Shown piece by piece: positions 696 to 28,701 of a stretch of 28,701 nucleotides of DNA. This DNA comes from a bacterium (GTDB taxonomy: Bacteria; UBP6; JAFGXH01). The translations under genes and the position numbers were made by a program. The notes under the pieces are model-generated. The model did not search any database. It was not told the origin of the DNA and was given only the letters and a program-made list of their open reading frames with translations. Within the stretch, counting starts at the first letter, position 1. Each line of letters opens with the position of its first letter. The stretch covers positions 1 to 28,701 of the forward strand of contig JAMOQH010000170.1 in NCBI GenBank assembly GCA_027064085.1. The letters are read 5' to 3'.

Positions 696-2594
696 ATGAA
701 AAAATTATTTAATGAAGAAACAGAAAAAAAAGATGAATTTCAAGCTATGATAGATTTATATCTTAAAGCAAAATCAGCATATTATGAGGGTAAAGACATA
801 ATGACAGATGCTGAATTTGATGAATTAGAAAATAAAATAAAAGAAGTTGACCCAAATAATAAAGTCCTTTCAATTGTAGGATATTCCACCAAAAGATTTG
901 AATACAGTCATATTACCCCAATGTTGTCTTTGGAAAAGATACAGGTAAATGATGAACTAAATTCTGAATTTGAGGAAATAATCAAATGGTGTTCTAAAAC
1001 CTTAACTAAAGAACCATTTATAATACAACCTAAATACGATGGCAATTCTCTTTCTGCTCAATATAAAGATGGCAAACTCATTAGAGTTTTAACAAGAGGA
1101 GATGGTAAGAAAGGTTTTGAAGTAACTGATAAAATATCAAAAATAATTCCAAATAAAGTTAAATTTAAGGGGAGTTTTGAAATCCGTGGGGAATGTTTAA
1201 TAAATGTTAACGACTTTGAAATAATAAATAAAAACAATAAATTTAAAAATGAAAGAAACTTTGTTGCGGGTGTATTAAGCGATACAAAAAACAATAAGAA
1301 TAGTGATAAATTAAAATTTGTAACATTTAGCATTACTAATCAATATGCTGAAAACTATAGTGATTTATTAAAAGAGCTAGAAAGTAAAGGATTTGAAATT
1401 TCTGATTATTGGTTTAGTGATTTTAAAACTATAGAAGATATTAAAAAATTTTATCATAAAATGAGCGAATACAGAAAAACCTCAAAATATAGACTCGATG
1501 GTTTTGTTATTAAAGTTAATGATTATTCAACAAGAGAAAAGTTAGGTTTTAATAAACATCATCCTCTTTCTGAAATCGCTATTAAATTTCCTGCCCAAAA
1601 AGGAATTACTCAAATACTAGATATAGAATGGACTATGTCTTCACAAGGAGAATTAGTTCCTACTGCAATTTTGGAGCCAGTTTATCTAGATGGTTCTACT
1701 GTTTCGAGAGCATATTTAGCAAACTTAAAAAATGCTTATAATAATGATTATTTACCCTCTGCAACTATTCAAGTAGAAAAAAAGGGAGATATTATCCCTC
1801 AAATTACTAAATTAATAAAACATTCCACTACAAGTAATAAAGAAAGCTTAAAACCAACAGAATGTCCTTTTTGTAAAAGTGAATTAGAATATACAGAAGA
1901 TTTAACACATATTTACTGCTCCAATAAAAAATGCCCCGAAATGATGATAAAAAAATTCTACAAAGGAATACAAATATTAAAACTTAGAAATATAGGCCCT
2001 TCAATGGTTAGAAAACTCTATGAAGCAGGAGTTGAAAATGTACTAGAATTATTTAATAAAAATTTAACTCCACAAAAATTAATAGAAAATGGAGATTTTA
2101 AAGAAGGAAGAGCCTTAGAAAGAGTTTTTGAATCTATTAATTCTATTAAAAGCATAGAATACAGTGATTTATTAAGAATAGAACAAATTGATGGAATTGG
2201 CTCAACTATTTCAAAAATGATAACTAAGTATTATTTAGGTGCACAATACAGCTTTTCTGGATTTGATAAAAGCATTATTAAAGAATTAACAACAAATAAA
2301 GATAAGTATTTTATTGCTCTCCCTAAAAAATGGACAGATACAACAAATATAGAAATTACATATCCAAATTATGAAAATGAAGAAGAAAAAACCAAAGTAA
2401 TATTAACAGGAAGCCCTAAAGAAGCAGGCTATCCAACTAAAAAGTACTTTCTAGATAGATTTACTCATTTAGAAGAAACAAAATCTTTTAAAGATGCAAA
2501 AATACTTATCACTGGAGATAAAAACTCAACAAGTTCTAAAATGAAAAAAGCTATAAAAAATGGATTGGAAATTAAAACTTATGATGAATTTTAG
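696..2594 (+). CDS. ligA: NAD-dependent DNA ligase (LigA-like, divergent)
   Basis: Seals nicks in duplex DNA using NAD+ as the adenylate donor. The 632 residues carry the LigA domain order. An N-terminal NMN-binding domain has the MTDAEFDEL motif. The adenylation domain has the KYDG motif, with the nucleophile lysine at K113, followed by TRGDG, EIRGE, DGFVIKV and AIKFPA. The OB fold contains EPVYLDGSTVSRA. A Cys4 zinc finger (CPFC...CSNKKC) is followed by helix-hairpin-helix motifs (IGPSMVRKL, IDGIGSTISKM) and a C-terminal BRCT domain starting near ILTGSPKEAGY. Length is close to the usual 660-680. Several core positions differ from housekeeping LigA (KYDGNS where many have KxDGLA), so it may be an accessory or phage-type copy. 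A lipoprotein gene begins 13 bases downstream and may be co-transcribed. Confidence 0.92.
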   Translation: MKKLFNEETEKKDEFQAMIDLYLKAKSAYYEGKDIMTDAEFDELENKIKEVDPNNKVLSIVGYSTKRFEYSHITPMLSLEKIQVNDELNSEFEEIIKWCSKTLTKEPFIIQPKYDGNSLSAQYKDGKLIRVLTRGDGKKGFEVTDKISKIIPNKVKFKGSFEIRGECLINVNDFEIINKNNKFKNERNFVAGVLSDTKNNKNSDKLKFVTFSITNQYAENYSDLLKELESKGFEISDYWFSDFKTIEDIKKFYHKMSEYRKTSKYRLDGFVIKVNDYSTREKLGFNKHHPLSEIAIKFPAQKGITQILDIEWTMSSQGELVPTAILEPVYLDGSTVSRAYLANLKNAYNNDYLPSATIQVEKKGDIIPQITKLIKHSTTSNKESLKPTECPFCKSELEYTEDLTHIYCSNKKCPEMMIKKFYKGIQILKLRNIGPSMVRKLYEAGVENVLELFNKNLTPQKLIENGDFKEGRALERVFESINSIKSIEYSDLLRIEQIDGIGSTISKMITKYYLGAQYSFSGFDKSIIKELTTNKDKYFIALPKKWTDTTNIEITYPNYENEEEKTKVILTGSPKEAGYPTKKYFLDRFTHLEETKSFKDAKILITGDKNSTSSKMKKAIKNGLEIKTYDEF

Positions 2595-2607
2595 ATTTTG
2601 GAGTAAA

Positions 2608-4623
2608 ATGAAGATATTTTTATTTATTTTAATTATTATAGTTTCAAATTTTGCAATTTCTTGTGGCGATGTAGAAACTACAACCGAAAATATAGATAAA
2701 TGCGAAAACTTCAATTGTTATAATAATTCTAGTTGTAAAGTTATAGATGATAATGCAACTTGTATATGTAATAATGGATATGAATTTTCTCCCTCTCAAC
2801 ACTCTTGTGTAAAAAAGGAAATTTCTTTATGTGATATTAACCCATGTACAGAAGAACACAAAACAATATGCTCTATAGTTGAAACAGGTGAAACAGCTCA
2901 TGCTGAATGTAGTTGTGATGCTGATTTTATATTAAATGAAGAAGATAAATGTGTTTGTAAAACGGGCTATATCTTGGAGAATAACAGCTGTAAAAAAATA
3001 CCAGAAAATAAGCCCATAAAAATAAGATTTACCTCTGCAAATTTAACTAGTGGTAATAATCAAGCTTATGAAGAAGAAGGAATAAGAATACTTAAAGCAC
3101 TTAAATCAGATATAATAATGATTCAAGAATTTAACTTTGGAAGTAACACAAAAAATGATATAAAAAACTTTGTAAAAAATACTTTTGGCACAGAATACCA
3201 GTATTTTAGAGGAACCCCAACAGGAAACGGAGATATACCAAACGGAATAATCAGCAAATATCCGATTATAAAAACCGGTGAAATTACAGACCCAAGAGTT
3301 ACAGACAGAAAAATAGATTATGTGGAAATAAAAGTTAATGATAAAATTAACCTAATGGTATTTTCAGTCCACCTAAAAGGTCAAGAAGATGATTCTCAAA
3401 TTACAGCAGCACAATTAATAACACAAAAAATATCAGAACATAAAAAAACACACACAGGTTATTACTATATTGTAGGTGGAGATTTTAATGGTGAAGCTAG
3501 TGTAGGCAATGAAGGTTTTGGCAAATTTAACAATAAGGAAATAATGCAAATAAATTTCCCCTACCCTAAATCCGAATACGGAAATGATGGGAATACCAAC
3601 AGAACAAGAACTGCAAAACTTGATTTTATTTTAGCTGATACCAACTTGTATCAATATCAAATATCAACAGATTACTGTATATCTAACTTAAATTGTAAAA
3701 AATATGAAAATGGTTTGGTTTTTGATTCCAGAAACTACAGCAGAAATGACCTTGATACATATTTTACAGAAGTTCAACCAAATGATTGTGATGCCAAAAA
3801 TATGCAACATTTGGCTGTTGTAAAGGATTTCCTTATTACCAAAGAACAAGAAGTAAAAAAAGCAGTATTAACAGAAGAAGAATTCAATTCAATATTTAAA
3901 AACCCTATTGCAACTAATAAATCAACAGCCTGTCCCGGCTATAATTTTTATAATTATACAGATTTTATAAATGCCACAAAAGAATACCCTCTGTTTGGCA
4001 ATGAAGGTACAGAAGAAATCAAAAAAAGGGAAATAGCTGCATTTTTAGCAAACATTTCACATGAAACAACAGGTGGTTGGAGTGGTGCTCCTGGAGGTGA
4101 AAACGGCAGATATTTATGGGGTCTTTGCTGGATAGATGAAATAGGCTGTGAAGATGGTAGTTGCACTCAATATTGTCAGGAAAACAATGAAACATATCCA
4201 TGTGCAAATGGTAAAACATATCACGGAAGGGGACCTATTCAATTAACTTGGAACTATAACTATGGAGCCATGGGTGAGCATATAGGAGTTGATTTATTAA
4301 ATCATCCTGAAATAGTTTCCACTAATGCTACAATATCATTTAAAACGGCATTGTGGTTCTGGATGACTCCCCAAAGCCCTAAACCATCAGCTCATGATGT
4401 TATGATTGGTCATTGGACTCCAAACAGTGATGATTTAGATAAAAATAGACTATCAGGTTTTGGAATGACTGTTAATATTATTAATGGTGGAGCAGAGTGT
4501 GGAAAAATAAATGATTCAAGGGTAAATGATAGAGTTAATCACTTTAAATACTTTTGCGAACTCCTTAATACAACAACTGAAGATAATTTATACTGTGATC
4601 AAATGCAACACTATAAAAAATAA
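2608..4623 (+). CDS. Lipoprotein: EGF-like modules + EEP nuclease-like domain + GH19 chitinase
   Basis: A 671-residue secreted, lipid-anchored protein of three fused parts. The start is the ATG at 2608, 5 bases after TTGGAG; an upstream in-frame ATG overlapping the ligase gene would spoil the signal peptide. Residues 1-19 form a signal peptide ending in a lipobox (FAISC, Cys19). Residues about 28-130 are Cys-rich EGF-like modules. Residues about 135-410 resemble the endonuclease/exonuclease/phosphatase fold (MIQEF with E174, SVHLKG with H255, GGDFNG with D292/N294, KLDFI with D339, QHLAV with H401). Residues about 425-671 are a glycoside hydrolase family 19 chitinase: SHETTGGW gives general acid E486 and WIDE gives E511, followed by YHGRGPIQLTWNYNYG, NHPEIV, FKTALWFWMT and NIINGGAECG. 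The chitinase part follows plant class I/II enzymes closely. It should cleave chitin-like GlcNAc polymers outside the cell. Activity of the nuclease part is less certain. Confidence 0.9.
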   Translation: MKIFLFILIIIVSNFAISCGDVETTTENIDKCENFNCYNNSSCKVIDDNATCICNNGYEFSPSQHSCVKKEISLCDINPCTEEHKTICSIVETGETAHAECSCDADFILNEEDKCVCKTGYILENNSCKKIPENKPIKIRFTSANLTSGNNQAYEEEGIRILKALKSDIIMIQEFNFGSNTKNDIKNFVKNTFGTEYQYFRGTPTGNGDIPNGIISKYPIIKTGEITDPRVTDRKIDYVEIKVNDKINLMVFSVHLKGQEDDSQITAAQLITQKISEHKKTHTGYYYIVGGDFNGEASVGNEGFGKFNNKEIMQINFPYPKSEYGNDGNTNRTRTAKLDFILADTNLYQYQISTDYCISNLNCKKYENGLVFDSRNYSRNDLDTYFTEVQPNDCDAKNMQHLAVVKDFLITKEQEVKKAVLTEEEFNSIFKNPIATNKSTACPGYNFYNYTDFINATKEYPLFGNEGTEEIKKREIAAFLANISHETTGGWSGAPGGENGRYLWGLCWIDEIGCEDGSCTQYCQENNETYPCANGKTYHGRGPIQLTWNYNYGAMGEHIGVDLLNHPEIVSTNATISFKTALWFWMTPQSPKPSAHDVMIGHWTPNSDDLDKNRLSGFGMTVNIINGGAECGKINDSRVNDRVNHFKYFCELLNTTTEDNLYCDQMQHYKK

Positions 4624-4744: not shown

Positions 4745-6820
4745 ATGAGATACTTATTACTAATGATTTTAACCATATTTTTGGTAACATCATGTCAACC
4801 ACAAAGCAACAATACCAACAGTGAAACAAAAAAAGTAGAAAAGAAAACCGAAAAAAAAGTAGAAAAGAAAACCGAAACACCTAAGAAAGAAGTTTATAAG
4901 GCTAAGCCAGGTATCATTACAGATGAAACAATTATGGCCGAATTTAATGGCAAAAAAATCTTGTTTAAAGAAATTAAAAAGAACTATTCTAAAGAATTAA
5001 AAGAAGCAAAAAATAAAGCTCTTAAAGAAGATTATGATAAAACTAGTTTAAAGGTTAATAAATTTGCAATTGAAAAATTATTAACAGAAGAAGCTAAAAA
5101 ACAGGGCTTAAGAAATCACAAAGAACTTCTTGACAAAATTACTTCAAATATTCCCAAACCATCTAAAAAAGAAATAGATGACATGAAAACAAAGTATGCA
5201 AAACAATTTGCAGCCAAAAAAATGAAACCGGAAGAAATAACCAAACTGGTTACTGATTACATCATGAATCAAAAGAAAAGTGATGCAGCTTATAAATATT
5301 TAGAAAAAATTAAAAAAGAAAAAGGATTTAAAATTTCCCTTCCTCATCCTAATATCCCTACTTTAAATATAGCAATAACAGATAATGATCCTTTTGAAGG
5401 CCCAAAAGATTCAAAATATGTAATTGTTGAATTTTCAGACTTTCAATGTCCTTACTGCTCTAGAATTGCTCCCATTATCTCAGGAATAAAGAAAACACAT
5501 AAAGATGTAAAAGTTGTATTTAAAAACTTTCCTCTATCTTTTCATAAAATGGCTAAAAAAGCAGCTTATGCAACATACTGTGCAAATGCTCAAGGTAAAT
5601 TTTGGAAATTACATGACAAAATCTTTGCAAATCAAAAAGATTTAAATGATATCAATCTTGAAAAATGGGTGGCGGAACTTAAAATTGATATGAATAAATA
5701 TAAGGCATGTGTAAATTCCCAAGAAACTAAAAAAGCTGTTGAAAATAGTATAAAAGAAGGAATTAAGCTTGGAGTAAAAGGAACTCCTTCTATATTTTTA
5801 AATGGCACACAAATAAATGTAACAACCCCAGATTTAATGAATGAAGCAATTCAAACAGAAAAAGATAAAGTTGTTGGAAAATTAACAAATGATACCGTTA
5901 TTGCAATAATAGGTGGTAAACAACTAAAATGGAGTGATTTTTTAGCAGAGAATAGAAATTTTGACACCTTAAATAAATCAAATAACATGAAAAGAAATTA
6001 TGAATTATATGCAAAACTCTTATCAAAAGAATTATCAAAACAAATTCTTGAATTAGCCTCAAAAGAAACCGGTTTAAAATCAATAGATGAATATATTAAA
6101 AAAATTATTGATAAAATTAAAGACCCCGAAGAAAAAGAATTGAAAGCTTTATACGAAAAATTAAAACCAAGACTTCAAGGTAAAAAATATGATGAAATTA
6201 AAGCTCAGTTAATTAAATACAGTAAACAAATAAAAGGCCAACAAGCTGTTCAAGAAAAAATGAAAGAATTATCAGATAAATACAAAGTAAAGGTAACTAT
6301 GCCTTTACCTGTACTACCAAAATTTAATATAAACATAAAAGAAGCAGCAATTATGGGTAAAAAAGATGCCAAATATACTCTTGTTGAATTTTCTGATTTC
6401 CAATGTCCTTATTGTGCAAAAGCAGCAAAATTCACAGAAGAAATATTAAAAAAATATCCAAGCAAAGTTAAAGTTGTATTTAAGCATTTTCCTCTTCCTT
6501 TTCATAAAAATGCTAAACAAGCATCAATTGCAGGAGAATGTAGCCGTATTCAAGGAAAATTTAGAGAATTTTATAATAAAGCATTTGAAAATCAAGATAA
6601 ACTTACAGAAGAAAATTTTATCAAATGGGCAAAAGAACTTAAATTAGATACTGAAAAATTTAAGAAATGCTTAAAAGACCCTGCAACAGCAAATAAAATT
6701 GACAAAGACTTAGAAGAGGGTCAGGAATTAGGAATTCAGGGAACTCCAACTCTATTTTTAGATGGAACAGCTTATAATTCCGGTCATGATATTAAAAGCT
6801 TTTCTAAATTTATAAAATAA
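4745..6820 (+). CDS. Lipoprotein with two tandem SurA-N-like + DsbA/thioredoxin-like units
   Basis: A 691-residue lipoprotein (LVTSC lipobox, Cys17) followed by a Lys/Glu/Thr-rich linker. Two units of the same design follow. Each has a helical domain resembling SurA/parvulin N-terminal chaperone domains (about residues 58-200 and 380-520), then a DsbA/DsbG-type thioredoxin domain (about 205-370 and 525-691). Each thioredoxin domain has VEFSDFQCPYC (C235/C238 and C554/C557), an FPL.FHK segment and a cis-proline loop (KGTPSIF, QGTPTLF). Such proteins make or rearrange disulfides in exported proteins at the membrane. Two intact CXXC sites suggest both units are active, or an electron relay. The substrate set could include the Cys-rich lipoprotein encoded just upstream (inference). 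Single-unit versions are common; the tandem copy looks like an internal duplication. Confidence 0.88.
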   Translation: MRYLLLMILTIFLVTSCQPQSNNTNSETKKVEKKTEKKVEKKTETPKKEVYKAKPGIITDETIMAEFNGKKILFKEIKKNYSKELKEAKNKALKEDYDKTSLKVNKFAIEKLLTEEAKKQGLRNHKELLDKITSNIPKPSKKEIDDMKTKYAKQFAAKKMKPEEITKLVTDYIMNQKKSDAAYKYLEKIKKEKGFKISLPHPNIPTLNIAITDNDPFEGPKDSKYVIVEFSDFQCPYCSRIAPIISGIKKTHKDVKVVFKNFPLSFHKMAKKAAYATYCANAQGKFWKLHDKIFANQKDLNDINLEKWVAELKIDMNKYKACVNSQETKKAVENSIKEGIKLGVKGTPSIFLNGTQINVTTPDLMNEAIQTEKDKVVGKLTNDTVIAIIGGKQLKWSDFLAENRNFDTLNKSNNMKRNYELYAKLLSKELSKQILELASKETGLKSIDEYIKKIIDKIKDPEEKELKALYEKLKPRLQGKKYDEIKAQLIKYSKQIKGQQAVQEKMKELSDKYKVKVTMPLPVLPKFNINIKEAAIMGKKDAKYTLVEFSDFQCPYCAKAAKFTEEILKKYPSKVKVVFKHFPLPFHKNAKQASIAGECSRIQGKFREFYNKAFENQDKLTEENFIKWAKELKLDTEKFKKCLKDPATANKIDKDLEEGQELGIQGTPTLFLDGTAYNSGHDIKSFSKFIK
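4829..4876 (+). repeat. Perfect 24-bp tandem duplication in the linker of the DsbA lipoprotein
   Basis: Two identical 24-base units encode KKVEKKTE twice, directly after the lipidated N-terminus. The unit is in frame, so copy-number change would alter the distance between the membrane anchor and the folded domains. Confidence 0.9.
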
Positions 6821-12242: not shown

Positions 12243-13529
12243 TCAACAAATTTTCAGTCCATAAGGCTTTATAACTCTATTTAGCTCCTTTTTTCCCTGA
12301 AAGTATGATAAAAGTACTCCAAAATTTGTAAAACTTACTCTTGAATCAACTAAGTCTTCAATTCTTGATTTAATAACTTGGTTATCAAGCATACAACCAC
12401 CACAATGAATTATTAATTTGTATTCTTTAAGTTTTTCATAATCTGCAAAAACTCTTCCAAAGTAATGGTCTATTTCTATACTACCATTTCCAAAAATTTC
12501 ATTTATTTTATTTGGAATTTGAATAGTTCCAATATCTTCGGCTTTTCTGTCATGATTACAACCTTCCGCAATCATAATTTTATCACCTCTTTTAAGGTTT
12601 TCAAATGCTTTTATCCCATCAACAAATAATTTCAACTCTCCATTACTTAAAAAATTAATCATTACTATAGAAAATGTGGTTATTTCTATATCAAGATATT
12701 TTGTCCATTTAGCAATAACATCCATTGCCTGGCTATCAGTAATGAGAAGTTGTAATTTGTTATCCCTTTTTAAATATTTAATAAAATTCATAAACCTTAA
12801 CCTTTCAGCTTCTTGAATTTCAATAACTTGAGACCTTGCTTTAATTAAATCCATTCTATAGGCAAAAGTTGGAATATATTTTCTTACTAAATATTCTTCA
12901 ATCATCATTTGAGGCCTTAAAAACCTACCGTTAGGAGTTTCTTCATCCATAGGAATATTTAAAAAAACAACTCTGTCTTTTTCTAGTGGAGGCAACAACT
13001 CTGTATCTTTAAATTTAACTTTTGAATTTTTTATTAAAAACTCAACTAGAACCATATAATTTTCCTTTTTTGAGAGATTTATATCTATCTTTTTACATTT
13101 GTATTCTGATAAAACCTCAAAATTAAATAGTTTTTTATTTCTTGTATTTTCAAATTTATTTACAACTATAAAAAGTTCTTTTTTTCTTTTTTGAGCTAGT
13201 TCTATTATTTCTTTTTCTGAATTATAATCTCCAAAATTATAGGCGTTGTTACTTTCATTAATAACTAGTAATACGATATCAGACCTTTTTAATGTATCAA
13301 AAGCCTTTTTCTTTTTTTTAAGGCCAAGTTTTCCATTTTCATCAATACCTGCAGTATCAAATAATTTTATAGGACCAAAATCATGTATCTCCATTACTGT
13401 TGTTTTAACATCTGTAGTTGTTCCAGGAGTAGAATCTACAATTGAAAGATATTGTTGTGTAATTAAATTCATTAATGTTGACTTTCCTGAATTTACTCTG
13501 CCAAATATTCCAATATTCATTCTTTTCAT
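12243..13529 (-). CDS. hydF: [FeFe]-hydrogenase maturation GTPase HydF
   Basis: Scaffold and carrier that receives the 2Fe subcluster built by HydG and HydE and delivers it to apo-hydrogenase. 428 residues. The N-terminal GTPase has G1 GRVNSGKS (10-17), the TPGTT switch, DTAG and NKFE, followed by a dimerisation region. The C-terminal cluster domain has C324-N-H326 and H375-C376-G-G-C379, matching the family pattern CxH-(about 46-53)-HCxxC that ligates the 4Fe-4S cluster. It is the last gene of the hyd operon, starting 2 bases after the hydE stop, with GAGAG overlapping that junction as its ribosome binding site. Confidence 0.97.
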   Translation of the reverse strand: MKRMNIGIFGRVNSGKSTLMNLITQQYLSIVDSTPGTTTDVKTTVMEIHDFGPIKLFDTAGIDENGKLGLKKKKKAFDTLKRSDIVLLVINESNNAYNFGDYNSEKEIIELAQKRKKELFIVVNKFENTRNKKLFNFEVLSEYKCKKIDINLSKKENYMVLVEFLIKNSKVKFKDTELLPPLEKDRVVFLNIPMDEETPNGRFLRPQMMIEEYLVRKYIPTFAYRMDLIKARSQVIEIQEAERLRFMNFIKYLKRDNKLQLLITDSQAMDVIAKWTKYLDIEITTFSIVMINFLSNGELKLFVDGIKAFENLKRGDKIMIAEGCNHDRKAEDIGTIQIPNKINEIFGNGSIEIDHYFGRVFADYEKLKEYKLIIHCGGCMLDNQVIKSRIEDLVDSRVSFTNFGVLLSYFQGKKELNRVIKPYGLKIC

Positions 13530-13531
13530 TG

Positions 13532-14566
13532 TTATCTCTCTTTATTTCTAAAACCATAATTAGTTGAAACACATCTTCCAATAGACTTAATTCTTGCTTC
13601 TAAACACCCCTTGCACTGAAAGGCTACTTCTGTTAAACATGCTTTATCAGGATATAATTCATACTTCATTTTATATTTAACAGGAGTAATATTAGGCATT
13701 ATAACATTTGCTCCTACTTGCAACATCTCTTCCCTTCCTCTTGCATTATTTAATGTTGAAAAAGCCGTCGTAACAGGCAAATTTGTATCTTTTGTAACAA
13801 TTCTTGTTATTGCTACAACCTTTTTTATCAATTCCAAAGCAGGAATATCACTTTCTCCTAAAATAGTATCGGGATGAGGTATAAAAGGGCTAATTCCTAT
13901 CATATCATAATCCATTTTCTTAAAAAAAATAATATCATTTGCAATAGATTCAATAGTTTGAGTAGGAAGCCCAATCATTATACCCGAACCAACTTCATAC
14001 CCAAGCTTTTTTAAATTTTTCTGGCACTCAATCCTTTTTTGAAATGACATATTAGGGTTTAGTGTGTTATATAACTGAGTATCCGATGTTTCATGTTTTA
14101 ATAAATATCGTTCTGCTCCTGCATTTTTATATCTTTCATATTGCTCATAAGTTTTTTCACCTATAGATAAGGTAATTACAAAGCCCATTTTTTTTATTTC
14201 TCTAACTATTTCACAAATCATATCATCAGTATAGTAGTTATCTTCTCCTGACTGCAAAACAACTGTTTTATAATTAAATGGTAAAGAGGTCTTAGCAGTT
14301 TCAATGATTTCATTAACACTCATACGGTATCTTTTAATTTTGGAGTTTTGACCCTGAATACCACAATATAAACATTGCCTTTTACAGTAATTTGAAAACT
14401 CTATTATACCCCGTAAATGAACTTCCTCTCCTAGATATTTTTTTCGTATTTCATCTGCTCTTTTAAATATTATATCACTATTTTTACTTTTTAATAAAAA
14501 GGCTATTTCATCTTTATTTAAGATATTATTTTCGAGATTGTTAAGTATTTCTAAGTCGTTATACAT
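13532..14566 (-). CDS. hydE: [FeFe]-hydrogenase maturase HydE (radical SAM)
   Basis: Radical SAM enzyme acting with HydG and HydF in assembly of the H-cluster. The SAM-binding motif is C61-KRQ-C65-LY-C68, preceded by the HydE-typical EVHLRGIIEFSNY. The SIGE, KHETSD and GLPTQT segments and the NITPVKYKMKYELYP region match HydE rather than BioB. I chose the ATG at 14566 because AGAG lies 6 bases before it and it overlaps the hydG stop by 8 bases; in-frame ATGs at 14572 and 14584 are alternatives and would add 2 or 6 residues. 344 residues, normal length. Confidence 0.95.
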   Translation of the reverse strand: MYNDLEILNNLENNILNKDEIAFLLKSKNSDIIFKRADEIRKKYLGEEVHLRGIIEFSNYCKRQCLYCGIQGQNSKIKRYRMSVNEIIETAKTSLPFNYKTVVLQSGEDNYYTDDMICEIVREIKKMGFVITLSIGEKTYEQYERYKNAGAERYLLKHETSDTQLYNTLNPNMSFQKRIECQKNLKKLGYEVGSGIMIGLPTQTIESIANDIIFFKKMDYDMIGISPFIPHPDTILGESDIPALELIKKVVAITRIVTKDTNLPVTTAFSTLNNARGREEMLQVGANVIMPNITPVKYKMKYELYPDKACLTEVAFQCKGCLEARIKSIGRCVSTNYGFRNKER

Positions 14567-15941
14567 AAACATCTCTTTTACCATTTTCTATATCTTTTAA
14601 AGCTATTTTAATGTTCTCCTTAATCCTTTCTTTATGAATTTCTGTTTTCATCATATCTTTTATTAAAGAATATCCTTTTTCTTTTAGATTAGCACTAGCA
14701 AAATCTTCTAAATATTCAGAAAATGAAAATATAGCATTAGGATAACAATGTGATTTTATTGCACCAGGCTTTGCTAAATCCATAAAATCAGCTCCTACCC
14801 TACCCAACCTATAACATCCAGTACAAAAACTAGGAATAAAACCGAAATCTACTATATCTTCAATAACTTCATGCAAACTTCTATGGTCTCCTAAAGAGAA
14901 TTGCTCATTTGATTGCTCTTTACTGCTATAACCACCAGGATTAGACTTAGATCCTGCAGAAATTTGAGAAATTCCTAAATCTAATGCTTCTCTTCTTGTT
15001 TCTGCCGTTTCTCTTGTGGATAAAATAATACCAGTATAAGGAATAGTTACTCTTAATATAGCAATAATTTTCTTAAAATCTGTATCCGATAATGGATAAG
15101 GTGGATTTGAGGCAATATCAGAACCAGTTGCAGGCTCTAATCTAGGAACAGAAACAGTGTGAGGACCAAAGCCAAATCTTTCTTCTAAATGTCTTATGTG
15201 TTGAAATAAAGCCAACATTTCGTATTTATAATCATATAATCCAAACAATACTCCAATTCCTATATCATCAATACCAGCTTCCATTGCTCTATCCATTGCT
15301 CCCAAATGATAATCGTAATCAGATTTAGAACCAGATTTATGCATAAATTTATAAGTTTCTCTATGATATGTTTCTTGAAACAACTGATAAGTACCTATAT
15401 TGGCTTTTTTTAGTTTTTTATAGTCTTCAACTTCAAGTGCAGCAATATTTACATTTATCCTTCTAATATTACCATTTGCATTTTTTACAGAGTATATAGC
15501 TTCTAAAGCATCAAGAGTATAAGGTAAGGCTTTTTTAGCTAGGCCTTCTCCAGAAACTAATAAAACTCTTTTGTGTCCTTGATTAATTAAGGCTTCTGCT
15601 TCCTTTTTAATTTCTTCCATTTTTAAAGTATTTCTTTTTATTGTTTTATTACTTTTTCTAAATGCACAATACAAACATTCATTATTACAAACATTAGAAA
15701 CATATAGTGGAGCAAATAAAACCAATCTCTTACCATAAATTTCATCTTTTACAAATTTAGCTGTTTCAAATATTTTATTTATTTGAGCCTCATTTTCAAC
15801 TTTTAATAAGGTAATTGCATCATCATAATCAAGTCCTTTTAGTTTTTTCGCTTTATTCAAAATATAATTAATGTTATCATTAGATAAATCAACTTTTTTA
15901 TTTAATTCTTCGATAATTTCATCATGGTTTATAATTTGCAT
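14559..15941 (-). CDS. hydG: [FeFe]-hydrogenase maturase HydG (tyrosine lyase, radical SAM)
   Basis: Cleaves tyrosine to p-cresol and dehydroglycine and makes the CO and CN- ligands of the H-cluster. 460 residues. The radical SAM motif is C85-NNE-C89-LY-C92. The C-terminal motif C373-TG-C376-(22 residues)-C399 binds the second iron-sulfur cluster, and separates HydG from the thiamine enzyme ThiH. It is the first gene of the hydG-hydE-hydF operon, with AGGGAG 5 bases before the ATG. The hydrogenase structural gene is not in this window. Confidence 0.97.
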   Translation of the reverse strand: MQIINHDEIIEELNKKVDLSNDNINYILNKAKKLKGLDYDDAITLLKVENEAQINKIFETAKFVKDEIYGKRLVLFAPLYVSNVCNNECLYCAFRKSNKTIKRNTLKMEEIKKEAEALINQGHKRVLLVSGEGLAKKALPYTLDALEAIYSVKNANGNIRRINVNIAALEVEDYKKLKKANIGTYQLFQETYHRETYKFMHKSGSKSDYDYHLGAMDRAMEAGIDDIGIGVLFGLYDYKYEMLALFQHIRHLEERFGFGPHTVSVPRLEPATGSDIASNPPYPLSDTDFKKIIAILRVTIPYTGIILSTRETAETRREALDLGISQISAGSKSNPGGYSSKEQSNEQFSLGDHRSLHEVIEDIVDFGFIPSFCTGCYRLGRVGADFMDLAKPGAIKSHCYPNAIFSFSEYLEDFASANLKEKGYSLIKDMMKTEIHKERIKENIKIALKDIENGKRDVYV

Positions 15942-27282: not shown

Positions 27283-28701
27283 TCATTCAGAAACGCACTC
27301 ACCATGATATTCATCAGAAGCATTATCAATATTATAAACCTCTCCTTCAGGGCACACTTGTTCTACGCAGTAAAGGTTACGAAACTCATCACATCTTTTA
27401 TCTTCCTTTTGTATAGAATTACTATTTCTATCATTAGTTTTACCTACTTTTCCCTTAGAATCATGATCGGAACTATTCCACTTATCACAGGTTTTTGTAG
27501 AAACATAATTATTAAACCCCTCATCTAACCCCGTCCAAGCTCTCTTGTCAGCAATAATAATACTATTATCAAAATCAAAATCAAAAGCCTTGTTAGAATC
27601 GGTTGTATTAATAAACTTATAAGTATTATTAGGCCCTTCAGATATAGCTCTATAATAATTCATATTCTTTTCTAAAACCCAATCCTCATCTAAGCCTCTA
27701 ATAGTAACAGTACCTGAACCTATTACAAATTTATCAGCCCCTAGTAATGCTTTATAGTAATGCCCATCACTAGGTTTATTTGCATCATTATTACATTTAT
27801 TATCAGCTCCACTTACTCCACCTAAGTTTCCTTGATAGATATTATTAGTAACATAAATTTTTAATTTCCTTACCGTACTACAAGTAGTTCCTTCATACAT
27901 AGGTAAACAATCACACTGTCCTGTTTCATCTTCACAACTATTAGAATGCTCTACAGTATTATTTACTTCACATCCACAAGCAGTACAATCATAACTACCT
28001 TCCCTATTTATGCAATATTGTGTAGAATTACAATTATCCAAACCCTCGGCACATTCATCTATATCCTCACAAACAGTAGGAGAAGATTCATCACAGTTCC
28101 ACCCTGTCTCAACATTACAGGTGGCATTACAACCATCTCCCCAAGAAGTATTTCCATCATCACATACCTCATCGGCAGATTTGTTTAAAATACCGTCTCC
28201 ACATATTGAAATGCTACAATTTACATTACAATTTGCAGTTTCCCCTCCATCATCACATTCTTCACCTGCAGAAGTATTAATTTTATTATCTCCGCAAACA
28301 GCAGGAGTACAATCATCATTGCAGTTAGCTGATTCATCACCGTCATCACATTGTTCACCATTATTATTTACAATTCCATCACCGCAGTATTCAACAATAC
28401 AGGTATCACTACAACCATCTCCAGAATCATTATTACCATCATCACATTCTTCAGATTCAGTATTAATACCATCACCACATACTTCCAAGCATTCAATACC
28501 ATCATCAGCTCCTCCATGATAACCATCATTACAAGCACAAGTAAAACTACCAGGAGTATTATAACAAGTAGCATTAGCATTACAATTATTATCATCATTA
28601 TTTGTACATTCATCTATATCTAGACATGAGGTTATACCATTTCCTTCATATCCATCTTTACAAGTACAATTAAAACTACCAGGGGTATTAGTACAATAAG
28701 C
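27283..28701 (-). CDS. EGF/DUF4215/DUF1554 surface protein, 5' end outside the window
   Basis: The frame is open to the right edge, so the N-terminus and its export signal are missing; the TTG at 28488 is internal. In order from the edge: two calcium-binding EGF-like modules (NTPGSFNCTCKDGYEGNG, DIDEC, NTPGSFTCACNDGY), about four DUF4215 Cys-rich repeats (VCGDGI-ECDDGN-GDGC-C), another EGF (DIDECAEGLDNC), a laminin-type EGF (CDCLPMYEGTTC), and a DUF1554 domain (KIYVTNNIYQGNLGG, KALLGAD, CDKWNSSDHDSKGKVG, NLYCVEQ). It ends shortly after a C-rich tail (CPEGEVYN...GECVSE). Such architectures are found in outer-membrane or secreted proteins of Myxococcota and Leptospira. The substrate or partner is unknown; disulfides make the DsbA-type lipoprotein a plausible helper. 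Confidence 0.85.
   Translation of the reverse strand, partial: AYCTNTPGSFNCTCKDGYEGNGITSCLDIDECTNNDDNNCNANATCYNTPGSFTCACNDGYHGGADDGIECLEVCGDGINTESEECDDGNNDSGDGCSDTCIVEYCGDGIVNNNGEQCDDGDESANCNDDCTPAVCGDNKINTSAGEECDDGGETANCNVNCSISICGDGILNKSADEVCDDGNTSWGDGCNATCNVETGWNCDESSPTVCEDIDECAEGLDNCNSTQYCINREGSYDCTACGCEVNNTVEHSNSCEDETGQCDCLPMYEGTTCSTVRKLKIYVTNNIYQGNLGGVSGADNKCNNDANKPSDGHYYKALLGADKFVIGSGTVTIRGLDEDWVLEKNMNYYRAISEGPNNTYKFINTTDSNKAFDFDFDNSIIIADKRAWTGLDEGFNNYVSTKTCDKWNSSDHDSKGKVGKTNDRNSNSIQKEDKRCDEFRNLYCVEQVCPEGEVYNIDNASDEYHGECVSE

Follow-up and report, generated by a model that had tools for sequence, protein, structure and literature searches.

A bacterial lipoprotein predicted to join EGF-like modules, an EEP domain and a plant-like loopful GH19 chitinase domain in a single reading frame

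The locus described here raises the question of whether one gene of an uncultured bacterium encodes an envelope lipoprotein with two catalytic domains of different kinds, and how such a protein would have come about. It resides in a window of 28,701 nucleotides, which constitutes the whole stretch of DNA that was analysed, and a sequence-only reading had placed a lipobox, EGF-like modules, an EEP domain and a GH19 chitinase domain in one 671-residue frame. We find each of these parts at the residues listed below, in a frame on the plus strand that reads from 2608 to 4623 with no internal stop. Our main reading, to which we assign a probability of about 0.65, is that the gene encodes a lipoprotein which is anchored in the envelope, probably exposed at the surface and equipped with two catalytic domains, and which would have originated when an EGF-EEP lipoprotein acquired a GH19 domain of the loopful type. 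Its architecture, the conservation of its active-site residues and its distribution are established from the sequence. The gene contains the following features:

2600..2603, plus strand: GGAG ribosome-binding site for the ATG at 2608 (sequence read)
2608..4623, plus strand: whole gene, EGF-EEP-GH19 lipoprotein (frame and translation)
2608..2664, plus strand: signal peptide with lipobox FAIS-C and predicted lipidated Cys19 (sequence; N-termini of the same kind in relatives)
2701..2808, plus strand: EGF-like module 1, C32-C67 (cysteine pattern; weak Pfam cEGF match)
2830..2952, plus strand: EGF-like module 2, C75-C115 (cysteine pattern; weak Plasmod_Pvs28 match)
to about 2991, plus strand: C117/C128 pair after module 2, a half module (cysteine pattern)
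3013..3846, plus strand: EEP domain, residues about 136-413 (Pfam PF03372, family alignment, residue check, low-confidence fold match to TDP2 and ExoIII-type nucleases)
3847..3888, plus strand: short linker, residues 414-427 (relatives from the phylum end about here)
3889..4602, plus strand: GH19 chitinase domain of the loopful type, residues 428-665 (Pfam, class I/II chitinases in the PDB, alignment)

Besides the ATG at 2608, a second in-frame ATG is located at 2560. We regard the former as the better start, because it is preceded by the GGAG at 2600-2603 and begins 13 bases past the stop codon of an upstream gene resembling NAD-dependent ligases. The encoded N-terminus combines a signal peptide, a lipobox and a cysteine near residue 20 (FAIS-C19), as is characteristic of bacterial lipoproteins with predicted lipidation, and the missing Asp at position +2 is the one feature that would suggest sorting to the outer membrane. 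The following region contains two full six-cysteine modules with the spacing C-x4-C-x5-C-x8-C-x-C-x12-C in the first and C-x4-C-x7-C-x12-C-x-C-x11-C in the second. The corresponding Pfam EGF matches are weak and fall below Pfam's own cut-offs; when residues 20-130 were shuffled 2000 times, two EGF patterns arose once. The same genome encodes at least nine further lipoproteins with cysteine-rich N-termini of the EGF type in front of differing C-terminal parts, including an amidohydrolase, Lcl_C plus rhodanese, an LNS2/HAD phosphatase, DUF285 and beta-propeller repeats, so that the EGF part is a stalk typical of the lineage and not peculiar to this enzyme. These proteins include:

L061-L069: further EGF-type lipoproteins of the window genome (G000)
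L066:1449-3041, minus strand: EGF-type lipoprotein with an LNS2/PITM-type HAD phosphatase
L064:957-2993, minus strand: EGF-type lipoprotein with DUF285

The EEP (endonuclease/exonuclease/phosphatase) domain of the window protein is recognized by Pfam PF03372 with an E-value of 2.2e-05 and 24.8 bits, just above the curated cut-off of 24.5, while scores of up to 44.6 bits are found in its relatives. In an alignment with 23 of these relatives, which are 36-45% identical to the window copy, 34 columns are invariant, and the residues constituting the active site (N145, E174, H255, D292, N294, D339 and H401) are conserved in all 24 sequences. Most EEP enzymes have an Asp-His pair as terminal element of this site. 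The equivalent position is occupied by Gln400-His401 within an MQH motif, which is shared by the 24 aligned proteins and eight more from a second phylum. The usual catalytic set (N, E, H, D-x-N, D and terminal D-H) is in this way complete except for its last Asp, a Gln (Gln400) throughout the family. Members with the MQH motif comprise window positions 3013-3846 and the loci L003-L016, L060, L061, L072-L078 and L081-L088.

This family of lipoproteins is found in 20 of the 28 genomes of the phylum, the window's own counted, and relatives occur, often in several copies, in 96 of 193 genomes of the second phylum (that of genome G055), which is probably Myxococcota. The relatives have lipobox N-termini followed by a variable spacer, consisting of EGF modules in the window's family and of Asp-rich or collagen-like sequences elsewhere. 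The window genome holds three EEP loci, the window gene, one on contig C98 that is cut by the contig end and one on contig C172. In the EEP tree, the latter two are placed apart from the window copy, C98 near sequences of the second phylum, but all three form long branches. No NCBIfam model names the family members tested, and the analysis brings to notice a widespread, apparently untested family of EEP lipoproteins with a changed active-site motif.

Since the family carries Gln-His in place of Asp-His, DNA cleavage is something that we infer, and other activities have to be weighed. It is unlikely that the EEP half is instead a lipid or sugar-phosphate phosphodiesterase which, next to a GH19 half acting on chitin, would target the membranes and chitin of eukaryotic material. 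Such a role is suggested by the best match of the EEP profile to a solved structure, the sphingomyelinase of Bacillus cereus (E 4.6e-06), and by a weak match of one relative to the sphingomyelin phosphodiesterase model of NCBIfam, a collection in which the window protein matches no model, this one included. However, the structural match is limited to profile positions 82-193, the conserved middle part that is shared by EEP folds, and the lamin-tail domain in the relative L073 recalls ExeM-type nucleases (PMC6085458). A model of the EEP domain predicted from a single sequence also finds DNA-repair EEP nucleases first. This model is poor (pLDDT 42 alone, with EEP blocks of 30-75 within the full-length model) and too weak for detail, and its top matches, the EEP-fold proteins TDP2, the ExoIII-type Mth0212 and Crc, reach an E-value of 0.003 at best and are thus of supporting value only. 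We consider it distinctly unlikely that GH19 is the sole enzyme, with an EEP half of weak or lost catalytic activity serving as a scaffold to bind a polymer such as DNA. The Gln-His pair in all inspected family members and the long branch and odd composition of the window copy would fit this explanation, but throughout the family no variation occurs at the remaining metal- and phosphate-binding positions, which argues against a dead domain.

The assignment of the C-terminal part is manifested in a match to Pfam PF00182 over the full domain (E 1.3e-85, residues 428-663, profile positions 5-232 of 232). Both catalytic glutamates recognized in the sequence-only reading, E486 and E511, are present and invariant in 33 aligned GH19 sequences, and the position holding the catalytic water, which is either Ser or Thr in the family (PMC8547705), is occupied by T547, with Ser being commoner. 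Among solved structures, ancestral reconstructions and chitinases of plant class I/II come nearest, with E-values down to 2e-83. Compared to the class I chitinase from papaya (3cql), the domain shows no deletion and three short insertions and is therefore of the loopful type. In a tree of 36 GH19 sequences, it appears as a long branch, with no sister resolved, in a clade (94/81) that also contains cyanobacterial, myxococcal, Tengunoibacter (Ktedonobacteria), Francisellaceae and plant-type enzymes. Sequence comparison supports its classification as a plant-like loopful GH19 domain. The earlier description of GH19 as best known from plants and actinobacteria needs to be widened, since the loopful enzymes with which this domain groups are cyanobacterial, myxococcal and ktedonobacterial as well as plant ones. 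The tree does not support a direct plant origin, as the plant-type sequences form a clade of their own in which the window sequence is not nested. The domain has also kept an N-terminal cysteine segment (ACPG) resembling loop 1, which is likewise found in plant and some myxococcal sequences.

GH19 is present in 1 of the 28 genomes of the phylum, the window's own, and a Pfam search of the window protein detected no chitin-binding module. Neither GH18 nor GH20 was found in the window genome or in two genomes of the same family. Any use of chitin would thus proceed without the usual chitobiose-cutting partner, which argues against chitin as food and against a dedicated chitin-feeding pathway. As a separate observation, a Bacteroidales frame of 4111 residues that is open at the contig end (L051:373-12705) contains three GH19-like stretches in one protein.

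The sequence-only reading had described EEP nucleases as usually separate and had named a hidden stop or frameshift between the domains on resequencing, or the existence of many proteins with the same three-part architecture, as grounds for abandoning its interpretation. The assembled frame contains no internal stop, and no such proteins were encountered in the genomes and sequences searched. In the inspected relatives from the phylum, the EEP domain is C-terminal and followed by a stop within a few residues, whereas in the window protein the frame remains open across the joint and the last EEP strand MQHLAVVKDFLI leads via the short linker into GH19. The values of GC3 are similar along the gene (0.15 in the EGF, 0.20 in the EEP and 0.21 in the GH19 part) and in its neighbours (0.13-0.20), and the codon usage of the GH19 part correlates with that of neighbouring genes with a coefficient of 0.90, whereas two myxococcal GH19 genes give about -0.4 and two cyanobacterial ones 0.3-0.5. 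This native codon usage makes a chimera with a foreign contig unlikely, and together with GC3 it leads us to reject a chimeric contig with GC-rich myxococcal sequence. It is highly improbable that two neighbouring genes were joined by an artefact of assembly or by a frameshift error, since, although the genome is a draft of 195 contigs and the fusion is unique among the 28 genomes of the phylum, the frame is open and the codon usage native on both sides of the joint, the genome is 94.7% complete with 0.6% contamination, and no second start or signal peptide precedes GH19.

No second instance of the architecture was detected in the 28 genomes of the phylum outside the window, among 43 GH19 loci from a seeded search of 84,980 species genomes, none of which has the family's EEP domain in the same frame, or in 193 genomes of the second phylum, where none of the EEP and GH19 matches listed joins the two domains. 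For these listed matches, the evidence that the second phylum lacks the join is strong though not absolute. In this phylum, 34 of the 193 genomes contain strong GH19 matches, which are shorter than the window's and located apart from the EEP matches listed. All 34 also hold EEP genes, but come from one family, so that this co-occurrence is confounded by kinship. Plasmids and phages contain the GH19 half only, with an identity not exceeding about 36% in matches that span most of the domain, and viral contigs yielded one marginal GH19 stretch and nothing related to the EEP domain. A literature search for GH19 together with EEP returned no paper. Each module is thus known, but the order EGF-EEP-GH19 was found nowhere else in the genomes and sequences searched. 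The view of an unusual fusion stands in this respect, but the EEP half belongs to a common family of secreted lipoproteins of the phylum with EGF, Asp-rich or collagen-like linkers, and the novelty resides in the added GH19. As GH19 proteins of more than 620 residues are highly modular and contain uncharacterised domains according to the GH19 database paper, rare similar fusions may exist in UniProt.

The upstream gene (window 696-2594) encodes a 632-residue protein resembling NAD-dependent ligases, with a copy of 57% identity in both other genomes of the family and matches of only about 30% in other members of the phylum. No EEP gene follows its orthologue in either of the two genomes, and the neighbours therefore provide no functional clue. 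The fusion gene either arrived at this site after the genera split or was lost from it in the others. Other genes in the surroundings were recorded in their own right. A lipoprotein at window 4745-6820 contains two tandem DsbA-like thioredoxin domains with a SurA-N-like stretch before the first, and a 953-residue frame on contig C40 of the same genome contains four such thioredoxin domains. On the minus strand, a protein encoded at 27283-28488 combines cysteine-rich DUF4215 repeats with DUF1554; a 169-residue frame at 28010-28519 on the opposite strand is probably its mere shadow. At 12243-15941, also on the minus strand, HydF (Pfam) adjoins a radical SAM protein and a gene resembling HydG by eye, and since HydF and HydG-like proteins would take part in [FeFe]-hydrogenase maturation, the host is probably an anaerobe.

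Returning to a lipoprotein with two catalytic domains as our main reading, the protein would be lipidated at Cys19 and the EGF modules would keep the enzyme at a distance from the membrane. The EEP domain would cut phosphodiester bonds, most likely in extracellular DNA or RNA, and GH19 would cleave the beta-1,4-GlcNAc chains of chitin by an inverting mechanism, with E486 as acid, E511 as base and T547 holding the water. Most likely, the lipoprotein would act at the surface as an endochitinase and a phosphodiesterase, the latter probably a nuclease. The distribution suggests that a lineage-typical EGF-EEP lipoprotein gained its loopful GH19 directly behind the last EEP strand, presumably long enough ago for the codons to have become native. 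Given the missing GH18 and GH20, the protein would more plausibly attack or remodel material that contains chitin than serve for feeding on it. More doubtful is the further proposal of a single-chain surface enzyme for mixed DNA-chitin material such as fungal or arthropod debris, biofilm matrix or prey envelopes, in which tethering would couple the two cuts of a plant-type chitinase grafted onto a lineage-typical surface nuclease. The fusion would clearly exemplify domain grafting, with a modular EGF lipoprotein as the scaffold, and it makes the protein a ready-made candidate for a bifunctional enzyme.

In known bacterial enzymes, the partners of GH19 are modules that bind chitin or peptidoglycan, or uncharacterised domains (PMC8547705), whereas the papers and genomes searched yielded no GH19 combined with a second catalytic domain of the EEP type. 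Among the systems for comparison, sphingomyelinase C is matched over profile positions 82-193 rather than the whole domain, and the window protein has no NCBIfam match. The extracellular nucleases of the ExeM/Xds type (PMC6085458) similarly export an EEP domain, and their lamin-tail domain is possibly present in one relative. However, ExeM requires an OB-like YhcR/YcgR region, is anchored to the membrane at its C-terminus and carries the Asp-His pair D822-H823 (PMC6085458), and from this architecture of lamin-tail, OB-like region, EEP and C-terminal anchor the window protein has the EEP domain only, with no OB-like region detected by Pfam. The secreted EEP lipoproteins of the own and the second phylum share its lipobox, spacer and EEP domain with the MQH motif at 36-45% identity, but the ones inspected end after EEP or carry a lamin-tail domain (L073), and none contains GH19. 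With loopful GH19 enzymes (plant class I/II and the bacterial group CHIT 11-I; PMC8547705), the protein shares the full domain, both glutamates and the loop lengths of plant class I, and it differs in its location behind EEP in a lipoprotein without CBM18, CBM5/12 or LysM and in its Thr at position 547 instead of the commoner Ser. CHIT 11-I, which encompasses cyanobacteria, Myxococcales and Ktedonobacterales, a taxon set similar to that of the window's clade, mostly has loops 2-5 and has usually lost loop 1 (PMC8547705), in contrast to the ACPG segment described here. Finally, the lipoprotein-like single-domain GH19 proteins of Myxococcota (e.g. L029, L031 and L034) share a lipobox-like N-terminus and the same type of GH19 domain, but contain a low-complexity spacer where the window protein has its EGF and EEP parts.
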